The position numbers and the translations under genes were made by a program. Under the pieces are notes generated by a model. The model was not told the DNA's origin. It searched no databases and saw only the letters and a list, made by a program, of their open reading frames with translations. Shown one piece after another: positions 973-6,983 of a stretch of 64,000 nucleotides of DNA; position 1 is the stretch's first letter; the number at the start of each line of letters is the position of its first letter. The stretch is from Altererythrobacter sp. TH136 (GTDB lineage Bacteria; Pseudomonadota; Alphaproteobacteria; Sphingomonadales; Sphingomonadaceae): assembly GCF_007065885.1 (NCBI RefSeq), contig NZ_CP041409.1, positions 620,001 through 684,000 of the forward strand, in the 5' to 3' direction.

Positions 973-1680
973 ATGACGACCATCCTTCTCACCGGCGCGT
1001 CGCGCGGGATCGGCGCGGCGGCCCTCGCCGCTCTCGAAGCACGCGGGTGCCGTGTGATCGGACAGGCAACACGCGCCAGCGAAAGCTTGCTGGCGGCGGA
1101 TTTCGCCGAGCCCCAGGCGCCGCAGGTCCTGTGGGAAACCGCGCTGGCGCAGGCTGGCGGTGCGATCGACGTATTGGTCAACAATGCCGGGCTTTTTGCC
1201 GAGAATCCGCTCGACGGATCCGACATCGCCTGGCTCGACGGATGGGAAGATACGGTGCGGATCAACCTGACCGCAGCGGCCCAGCTCAGCCGGTTCGCCG
1301 TGCGGCACTGGCAGGACCGGGGCACAGGGGGGCGCATCGTCCATGTCGCGAGCCGTGCCGGACACCGGGGCGATTCCCCGGCGCACTGGCACTACGCCGC
1401 GGCCAAGGGCGGGATGTTGGCGCTGCACAAGACGATCGCGCGGCAATACGCAGCGCAAGGGATCCTCAGCTATGCGATCGCGCCCGGCTTCACCGATACC
1501 GGCATGGCGGGAGACTACCTCGCCAGCCGTGGCGGCCCGGCGCTGCTGGCGGACATTCCGCTTGGCCGGGTGGCAACGCCAGAGGAGATCGCGACGATCA
1601 TCGTGTTCTGCGCTCTCGACGCGCCGCCGAGCATGACCGGCGCGACCCTCGACGCCAACGGAGCTAGCTATGTCCGTTAG
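973..1680 (+). CDS. SDR-family NAD(P)-dependent oxidoreductase
   Basis: This 235-residue classical short-chain dehydrogenase shows the cofactor motif TGASRGIG (residues 7-14), the NNAG structural motif (about 69-72) and the catalytic Ser (HVAS) followed by Y-x-x-x-K within YAAAKGG. A purine-rich AAAAGGGG lies upstream of the ATG. Its last 11 bases overlap the next gene, a metallo-beta-lactamase-like protein, so the two are probably co-transcribed. The substrate cannot be told from the sequence; SDRs with this layout reduce keto groups or oxidise alcohols. Confidence 0.88.
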   Translation: MTTILLTGASRGIGAAALAALEARGCRVIGQATRASESLLAADFAEPQAPQVLWETALAQAGGAIDVLVNNAGLFAENPLDGSDIAWLDGWEDTVRINLTAAAQLSRFAVRHWQDRGTGGRIVHVASRAGHRGDSPAHWHYAAAKGGMLALHKTIARQYAAQGILSYAIAPGFTDTGMAGDYLASRGGPALLADIPLGRVATPEEIATIIVFCALDAPPSMTGATLDANGASYVR

Positions 1681-2569
1681 ATCAATCGCCGCCGCATTTG
1701 CGCTGCTGGCGGGATGCGCGACGGCTCCAGCGCCGCTGGCCGACGCCGCCATCGGCCAGCGCGCCTGGGCCGCGGCGTGTGCGGACGCTGACGAGTGGGA
1801 CAAGCCCGGCCCGCCCTTCCGCATCCGCGGCAACACCTATTACGTAGGCACTTGCGGCATCACCGCGCTGCTGGTGACGGGGCCCCGCGGCCACACGTTG
1901 ATCGACAGCGGGACCGACAAGGGTGCCGAGGTGGTGCTGGCTAACATCCGCGCGCTCGGCTTCGATCCAGGCGACGTGAAGTACCTGCTGATGAGCCACG
2001 AACATTTCGACCACGTCGGCGGGATCGCACGGGTGCAGGCTGCCACGGGAGCAACCATCGTAACCTCTGCAGCTGCCGCCAAAGTCCTGCGCAGCGGCGA
2101 GGTCGATCCGAACGACCCGCAGTCCCGTTCCAACCACCCGCCCTTCCCGCCCGCAACCGGCCGGATCATCGAACTCGGCGTAGATGAAGCGCGAATGCCG
2201 CCGGGTTTGGCCGCCAAACCGATCTTCACCCCGGGGCATACTCTGGGAGCGCTGAGCTGGACCTGGCAGGCTTGCGACGAAGGGGACTGCAAGACGATCG
2301 TCTATGCCGACAGCCTCAATCCGATCAGCTCTGAAGGTTACCGCTACCGCGACCATCCGGAGCTGGTGAAGGGGTTCCGCGGCGGAATCGACGCGGTGAG
2401 CAGCGCACCGTGCGACATCGTGCTGGCGCCGCATCCTATGGCGGCAGCGATGCGCGCGCGCTTGCTGGGAGACAAGCCTCTGGTCGATCCGGGTGGTTGC
2501 CGTGCCTATGCTGCAGCAGCAAGTGATCGGCTCGACAAGCGGCTCGTACAGGAGGCCGCCGGTGGCTGA
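1670..2569 (+). CDS. Subclass B3 metallo-beta-lactamase-like lipoprotein
   Basis: This 299-residue protein has all six zinc-site residues of subclass B3 metallo-beta-lactamases: H110, H112, D114 and H115 in HEHFDH, H190 in TPGHTLGALSW and H255 in APHP. The TPGHT-x-G-x-x-SW string is typical of B3 rather than of glyoxalase II or RNase Z. The N-terminus has a short hydrophobic run ending in LLAGC (Cys16), a lipobox, so it is probably a membrane-anchored periplasmic lipoprotein. By family it would hydrolyse beta-lactams, but related proteins act on lactones or other substrates. It overlaps the SDR gene by 11 bases and prmA by 8. Confidence 0.86.
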   Translation: MSVRSIAAAFALLAGCATAPAPLADAAIGQRAWAAACADADEWDKPGPPFRIRGNTYYVGTCGITALLVTGPRGHTLIDSGTDKGAEVVLANIRALGFDPGDVKYLLMSHEHFDHVGGIARVQAATGATIVTSAAAAKVLRSGEVDPNDPQSRSNHPPFPPATGRIIELGVDEARMPPGLAAKPIFTPGHTLGALSWTWQACDEGDCKTIVYADSLNPISSEGYRYRDHPELVKGFRGGIDAVSSAPCDIVLAPHPMAAAMRARLLGDKPLVDPGGCRAYAAAASDRLDKRLVQEAAGG

Positions 2570-3494
2570 CTGCTGGTCCGTTCGCGCCGATGTGCCGCGG
2601 GAAATCGCCCGTGCGGCGCTGGTGGCGCACGAAGACGCGCTCGACTGGCCGGAAGACTGGGTGCTGACCGGCAGCGAGGTGGCCGATCACTTGCCGGAAG
2701 ACTGGTTTGTCGAAGCCTATCTGCCGCACGAACCTTCGGCGGAGGACGTCGGCCGTGTAGCGGCTTTGTTTGGAGACACGGCGCCAAAGCTGGTAGTGAC
2801 CGCGATCCCCGATCAGGACTGGCTCACCGTCAGCCAAGCGGGGCTGGAGCCGATCGTCGCCGGACCGTTCCGCGTCCGCACCCCCGATCATCCGGCGATC
2901 CCCGACACGATCGACTTCGCGATCCCGGCCAGCCAAGCCTTCGGCACCGGCCATCACGCCACTACCGCGGGCTGCCTGGCGATGCTAGGGCGCATGAAAC
3001 GGACGGGGATGCAGGTGCGCAACCTCGCTGACATCGGCACCGGCACGGGGCTTCTGGCATTCGCCGGGCTGGCCTTGTGGTCCCGCGCCTATGCGACCGC
3101 GAGCGACATCGACGCGGTCTGCGCCGGGGTCGTGGAGGCCAATGCCGAGGCCAATAACGTGCGGATGGGTGCTGGCCGCGGCGCGCTGACGATGGTGATC
3201 GCCGATGGCATGGCGAACCCGCTGCTGCGCGCGCGCGGGCCGTACGACCTGCTCATCGCCAACATCCTCGCCGGTCCGCTGGCGGAACTGGCCGCCGATT
3301 TCGGGCGCGCCGTGGTGCCCGGCGGCAGCGTGCTGCTGGCGGGCTTGCTCGAAACGCAGGAGCGCGCGGTGCGCGCCACCTACACCCGCGCCGGGTTTCG
3401 CCTCGCCGCGCGCGACGTGCGCGGAGACTGGTCCGTGCTGTGGCTGCGAAAACGCAACCGTCAGCCGCTCCACCGGGCGAGCGCCTCACGGTAG
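2562..3494 (+). CDS. prmA: Ribosomal protein L11 methyltransferase
   Basis: The start is taken as the GTG at 2562, because AGGAGG (2550-2555) sits six bases upstream; this overlaps the previous gene's stop codon. The 310-residue product has a PrmA-type N-terminal substrate domain, then the conserved AFGTGHHATT segment, SAM motif I (ADIGTGTGLLAFAG) and the NILAGPL motif (in place of NPPY) that marks PrmA. It methylates ribosomal protein L11 using S-adenosylmethionine in the cytoplasm. Its last 34 bases overlap the 3' end of a convergent gene. Confidence 0.9.
   Translation: MADCWSVRADVPREIARAALVAHEDALDWPEDWVLTGSEVADHLPEDWFVEAYLPHEPSAEDVGRVAALFGDTAPKLVVTAIPDQDWLTVSQAGLEPIVAGPFRVRTPDHPAIPDTIDFAIPASQAFGTGHHATTAGCLAMLGRMKRTGMQVRNLADIGTGTGLLAFAGLALWSRAYATASDIDAVCAGVVEANAEANNVRMGAGRGALTMVIADGMANPLLRARGPYDLLIANILAGPLAELAADFGRAVVPGGSVLLAGLLETQERAVRATYTRAGFRLAARDVRGDWSVLWLRKRNRQPLHRASASR

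Positions 3495-4026: not shown

Positions 4027-6979
<2,953 letters not shown>

Positions 6980-6983
<4 letters not shown>

Follow-up and report, generated by a model that had tools for sequence, protein, structure and literature searches.

The locus described here raises the question of how a beta-lactamase gene can keep a fixed place between two conserved neighbours while the enzyme that it encodes appears not to share their history. It lies near the start of a window of 64,000 nucleotides (the whole stretch of DNA that was analysed; positions 620001-684000 of contig NZ_CP041409.1) from Altererythrobacter sp. TH136. Here a gene for a predicted metallo-beta-lactamase (MBL) of subclass B3 forms, together with a short-chain dehydrogenase (SDR) gene and prmA, a chain of overlapping genes in which the final 11 bases of SDR overlap the lactamase start and the GTG start of prmA has an 8-base overlap with the lactamase stop.

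973..1680, + strand: SDR gene, the upstream flank (PF13561, 1e-31; kept upstream neighbour)
1670..2569, + strand: subclass B3 MBL gene, predicted lipoprotein of 299 aa (NF033105, PDB match, structural model)
2562..3494, + strand: prmA (ribosomal protein L11 methyltransferase), GTG start, the downstream flank (PF06325, 5e-40; kept neighbour)

We favour, with some reservation, the interpretation that in the Erythrobacteraceae and related families the SDR-lactamase-prmA locus serves as a slot for exchange on the chromosome. Its short interval may be empty, hold an unrelated gene, or hold a B3 lactamase from a large and deeply divergent set; the lactamases would replace one another in situ as the flanks recombine, and the lipid anchor would be gained and lost along the way. 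Gammaproteobacterial lineages, including the one to which the plasmid-borne enzyme LMB-1 belongs, may also have branched from this native pool. The initial annotation recognised the enzyme, its zinc site and its lipobox, all of which stand, but it overlooked the locus and judged membrane anchoring to be unusual for a B3 enzyme, which does not hold in this clade.

The 1670-2569 reading frame is genuine, with relatives (E ≤ 1e-30) in 88 of the 199 family genomes searched, two of these 88 having two copies; in its own genome (2.61 Mb, one contig) the gene is the sole copy. A scan of named genomes yielded 80 loci, chiefly from Erythrobacteraceae and Sphingomonadaceae, the remainder including Rheinheimera, Paraglaciecola, Marinicella, Lysobacter and Parvularculaceae. 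The full sample comprised 171 loci (one of them the plasmid locus of LMB-1), or 163 distinct proteins after removal of eight duplicates; with the references SAM-1, MIM-1, SMB-1 and AIM-1 these gave a residue alignment of 167 rows. The 123 distinct rows adjoined by SDR and/or prmA are referred to as locus relatives. The nearest relative, from Tsuneonella rigui, matches the window protein at 68% over the core.

SDR is located upstream in 128 of the 171 loci and prmA downstream in 125, with both present in 122. Occupancy of the slot was assessed in the 125 genomes, from the 199 searched, that have both flank genes among the matches listed. SDR and prmA are adjacent with the slot empty (gap -8 to 312) in 53 of these genomes, including one from the same genus as the window (G184), and are separated by a gap of 878-1096 in 64; other cases account for eight. 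A lactamase match is found in 61 of the 64 wide-gap genomes, and since one of these (G127) carries its match elsewhere, 60 of the wide gaps are lactamase-filled. Six filled or half-filled slots without lactamase carry other frames. Pfam typing among the slots L174-L179 identified DUF6151 (L174), an L,D-transpeptidase domain (L177) and an amidohydrolase (L178). At window positions 1670-1672 the ATG at which the lactamase appears to start is made by the SDR C-terminus, ANGASYVR. A start codon 11 bases ahead of the end of the SDR stop is found in 117 of 120 loci (102 ATG, 15 other), and was considered as a signal of selection on the lactamase; this proposal was dropped, as 12 of 14 empty-slot control loci (L180-L193) share it. 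Because SDR ends in ANGASYVR (ASHVR in one case) in empty slots as well, the conserved start codon is a side effect of how SDR ends. In the open-licence PubMed Central (PMC) literature we found no paper joining metallo-beta-lactamase with SDR and prmA or with prmA and Erythrobacter, and none on exchange of lactamases at a slot (Erythrobacteraceae MBL transfer, xenologous beta-lactamases), as judged by titles and the beginnings of abstracts.

The argument for exchange comes from the incongruence between the lactamase and its flanks. Both flanks were usable in 119 loci. Across these, the pairwise identities of SDR and PrmA correlate at 0.58, whereas those of MBL correlate at 0.19 with SDR and at 0.08 with PrmA. 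Seven of the 67 pairs with flanks more than 85% identical have MBLs that are less than 60% identical. Among 68 pairs with SDR above 88%, MBL falls below 60% in 18 and PrmA in none, although the latter is a lenient control because PrmA is the more conserved protein. The loci L011 and L071, for example, are 92% identical in their flanks and 45% in MBL; at the nucleotide level they share 81-92% over the greater part of SDR and the flank upstream of it, drop to 51-66% within the lactamase and return to 80-90% in prmA, the shift falling at the gene ends, and L117 and L130 are similar. Trees of 43 rows show the same conflict. The flank tree contains the clades L011+L071 (support 99), L117+L130+L114 (95) and the window's group, L001+L092+L034+L003 (98). 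In approximately unbiased (AU) tests, where very small values are to be taken as rejection only, the MBL data reject the first (log-likelihood 217 lower, p-AU 3e-28), the second (p-AU 0.001) and the third (log-likelihood 181 lower, p-AU far below 0.001). Conversely, the flank data reject the MBL pairs L071+L056 (p 0.00025) and L117+L141 (p 2e-5). The window's group without L092 is also rejected by the MBL data (p 6e-5), yet the flank tree does not recover it as a clade either (p 0.238). On these sequence comparisons we read the incongruence as repeated replacement of alleles in situ via the conserved flanks, with recombination as the presumed cause.

The enzyme that occupies the slot in the window is, on sequence, a genuine subclass B3 metallo-beta-lactamase of a known family and unremarkable for its clade. 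It scores 259.8 bits against the NCBIfam equivalog NF033105 (subclass B3), above the curated cut-off of 240, and all 67 members of a family alignment match this model at E ≤ 1e-50. The best family-specific models are ECM (298.5 bits, cut-off 640), EFM (298.3, cut-off 610) and SAM (296.9, cut-off 550), with EAM (262.1, cut-off 660) and MIM (255.9, cut-off 640) lower; as these scores are far under each cut-off, the window enzyme is a B3 lactamase outside the ECM, EFM, EAM, SAM and MIM families. The closest solved relatives by sequence are 6mfi (SAM-1, E 6e-88), 6auf (MIM-1), 3vpe (SMB-1) and AIM-1 chains. An AlphaFold2 model built from the window protein and 37 relatives has a mean predicted local distance difference test (pLDDT) score of 92.9, with only 54-60 for residues 1-20, and superimposes on 6mfi with a template modelling (TM) score of 0.95 on the target and a root-mean-square deviation of 1.6, indicating a B3 fold. 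The protein groups with true B3 lactamases. A HARLDQ MBL-fold protein was rejected as an assignment, since that model gives 139.8 bits where its cut-off is 350, and the protein has HEHFDH in place of the HARLDQ motif; a generic MBL-fold hydrolase is likewise excluded by motif and profile score.

The principal active site elements are as follows.

1997..2014, + strand: HEHFDH zinc motif with H110, H112, D114 and H115 (sequence and alignment)
2120..2122, + strand: Gln151 codon, standard Gln157 (invariant in 123/123 locus relatives)
2228..2260, + strand: TPGHTLGALSW, residues 187-197, with zinc ligand H190 (sequence and alignment)
2432..2434, + strand: H255 zinc ligand codon (sequence and alignment)

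The six ligands are located where the initial annotation placed them (H110, H112, D114, H115, H190 and H255, corresponding to standard positions 116, 118, 120, 121, 196 and 263), as is the TPGHTLGALSW signature, and alignment with SAM-1, MIM-1, SMB-1 and AIM-1 shows that the H116 H118 H196 / D120 H121 H263 set is complete. Five of these residues (H112, D114, H115, H190 and H255) are invariant in all 167 rows; H110 is His in 155, the others having Glu (11) or Gln (one), and every one of these exceptions comes from outside the conserved locus. The zinc ligand at standard position 116 is thus Glu in 11 of the 163 distinct relatives, similar to the B3 enzyme of PDB 7luu with its active-site glutamate; we take these rows to be the non-syntenic B3-like loci L064-L070 and L073-L076, an 11-row clade in the tree. 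Subclass B3 enzymes carry Ser at position 221 where B1 and B2 enzymes carry Cys, and Ser215 of the window protein, at standard position 221, agrees with B3. H110, Gln151, Ser215, C37, C62, C248 and C277 are present in 123/123 locus relatives, C202 in 120 and C207 in 121. The six cysteines correspond to those forming three disulfides in MIM-1 and SAM-1 (PMC7392888), and Cys16 is therefore the sole unpaired cysteine. The same source describes Ser221 and Gln157 as substrate-recognition residues of B3 lactamases, and takes up the hypothesis that Gln157 is restricted to horizontally acquired B3 enzymes. Because it is invariant in all locus relatives at one chromosomal locus, Gln157 would be a marker of lineage and not of mobile elements, with the caveat that in-situ swapping would itself be horizontal transfer.

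The N-terminus (MSVR-SIAAAFAL-LAGC16) comprises a charged n-region, a hydrophobic h-region and a canonical lipobox at residues 13-16.

1670..1717, + strand: lipobox-bearing signal peptide (LAGC), predicted lipidation of Cys16, Ala at +2 (sequence, shuffle test, Lgt and LspA)

The lipobox reported previously fits the bacterial lipoprotein pattern of a signal peptide with [LVI][ASTVI][GAS]C. It is unlikely to have arisen by chance, since a strict lipobox test was positive in just 0.9% of shuffled N-termini (73/8150). Lgt and LspA are encoded in the same genome, and the enzyme is probably tethered to the membrane by lipid at Cys16. Among relatives, 92 of the 171 loci were positive in a loose test and 66 of the 163 distinct rows in the strict one. 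The supposed rarity of anchoring among B3 enzymes is contradicted in this clade by the 57 of 123 locus relatives with a strict lipobox, and by LMB-1, which has one too. A FastTree tree of the 87 rows with clear state requires at least 14 changes of anchor state, against a mean of 25.2 and a lowest value of 19 in 200 shuffles. As judged from lipoboxes, anchoring is both common and labile in this clade. Lipoboxes in all three MBL subclasses have been reported already (Gonzalez 2016, cited in PMC12326980), and PMC10920655 deals with B1 enzymes. We found nothing on lipidated or membrane-bound subclass B3 enzymes in the open-licence PMC literature. Since the cited work on anchoring concerns B1 enzymes, anchoring in subclass B3 seems to have been little studied rather than to be unprecedented.

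Very probably, then, the gene encodes an intrinsic chromosomal di-zinc B3 beta-lactamase, lipid-tethered by prediction, in a conserved slot whose alleles are replaced in situ. Its translation is probably that of the middle gene in an SDR-lactamase-prmA unit, and the product would be exported by its signal peptide, receive diacylglyceryl at Cys16 from Lgt and then be cleaved by LspA. Under the enterobacterial +2 rule, lipoproteins with Ala at +2 are sorted to the outer membrane; the Ala at this position here suggests tethering to that membrane, on its periplasmic face. There a zinc-bridging hydroxide would hydrolyse penicillins, cephalosporins and, probably with lower efficiency, carbapenems, a substrate range expected by analogy with MIM-1 and SAM-1, which have been assayed (PMC7392888). 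A homoserine-lactonase side activity is likely on the same analogy. Over longer times the lactamase allele would have been replaced several times between flanks that were kept.

Several observations weigh against this picture and bear on the alternatives. Hydrolysis of beta-lactams by the window protein is itself predicted from homology, and the enzyme might be mainly a lactonase, active in quorum quenching, or another MBL-fold hydrolase for which beta-lactam hydrolysis is incidental. The position of the gene in a housekeeping-looking unit that has no beta-lactam regulator would suit such a role; we nevertheless regard it as quite unlikely, as the relatives with lactonase activity are efficient beta-lactamases, Ser221 and Gln157 are invariant in all locus relatives and the score exceeds the B3 equivalog cut-off. 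Lipidation, in turn, is predicted from a sequence pattern; among the 123 locus relatives, 30 have an N-terminus free of cysteine and another 36 are ambiguous, which means that the family does not share anchoring as a fixed trait, and MIM-1 and SAM-1 function as mature proteins produced without a signal peptide. That Cys16 is left unlipidated and the enzyme released as a soluble periplasmic protein is nonetheless improbable, given the canonical LAGC behind a charged n-region and a hydrophobic h-region, the absence of a disulfide partner for Cys16 and the presence of Lgt and LspA in the genome.

The incongruence might also be attributed to very fast evolution of the lactamase or to hidden paralogy. 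In comparisons with the window the lactamase is generally less conserved than either SDR or PrmA, and nearest-neighbour agreement between flank and MBL (45/119) is little under that between SDR and PrmA (55/119), a weak contrast. In addition, the groups tested were selected after the identities had been seen, and one of them, L129+L141 (flank support 100), is not rejected by the MBL data (p 0.104). Despite this we consider rate or paralogy an unlikely explanation: topologies and not rates alone are in conflict, each data set rejecting clades of the other, identity falls at the gene edges, and extra copies are as rare as noted above. If in-situ replacement is indeed the cause, resistance alleles are exchanged on chromosomes without plasmids or integrons, by a route that searches for mobile elements would overlook. 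The less ordinary part of this system is the locus, which is conserved yet would swap its alleles, the protein itself being of a known kind.

Comparison with known enzymes places the window lactamase close to, and distinct from, several B3 lineages. The Erythrobacter enzymes EAM, ECM and EFM (Girlich 2012, cited in PMC10740994) include its best NCBIfam matches, and an EAM-family protein of Qipengyuania aquimaris (L136; 749 bits against a cut-off of 660) has a strict lipobox and occupies the same SDR-prmA slot; the window enzyme, far under the 610-660-bit cut-offs of these families, is thus a distinct allele. In structural alignment it is 51% identical to SAM-1/MIM-2 of Simiduia agarivorans and 47% to MIM-1 of Novosphingobium pentaromativorans, with the zinc site, three disulfides, Gln157 and fold in common. 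It scores below the SAM and MIM family cut-offs, and its activity is predicted from that of the two assayed enzymes.

LMB-1, a clinical enzyme carried on plasmids in Enterobacter cloacae and Citrobacter freundii, is 48% identical to the window enzyme but is mobile, with an IS91-family transposase gene nearby and neither SDR nor prmA. Read from a longer start (L171:845-1756), LMB-1 looks like a lipoprotein, with LAGC at Cys25; a shorter annotated start, at 899, would leave out the n-region and so hide this. In both FastTree and IQ-TREE trees LMB-1, with Rheinheimera, and SAM-1 are nested in the syntenic clade (support 95, 41 rows; 98, 65 rows). Since the alternative, in which the syntenic rows and MIM-1 form one clade without the gammaproteobacterial enzymes, is not rejected (log-likelihood 36 lower, p-AU 0.173), the nested origin is favoured by the trees but not required by the AU test. 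NDM-1 resembles the window enzyme as a lipid-anchored metallo-beta-lactamase, if the latter is lipidated, but belongs to subclass B1 and has other ligands. NDM variants are stated in PMC12326980 to be the sole clinically important membrane-anchored MBLs, a statement that the LMB-1 lipobox would qualify.

Around the unit in the window, sdh cytochrome subunit genes lie upstream of SDR on the opposite strand, and no regulator adjoins the lactamase gene. A promoter scan of the locus gave no sigma-70-like site, and a terminator scan gave one terminator-like site against 1.3 expected. The guanine-plus-cytosine content is uniform over the lactamase gene, which therefore bears no sign of recent foreign origin. 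Further along, a BD-FAE type alpha/beta hydrolase encoded on the minus strand at 6087-6983 likewise starts with a lipobox-like sequence, ILLAGC.
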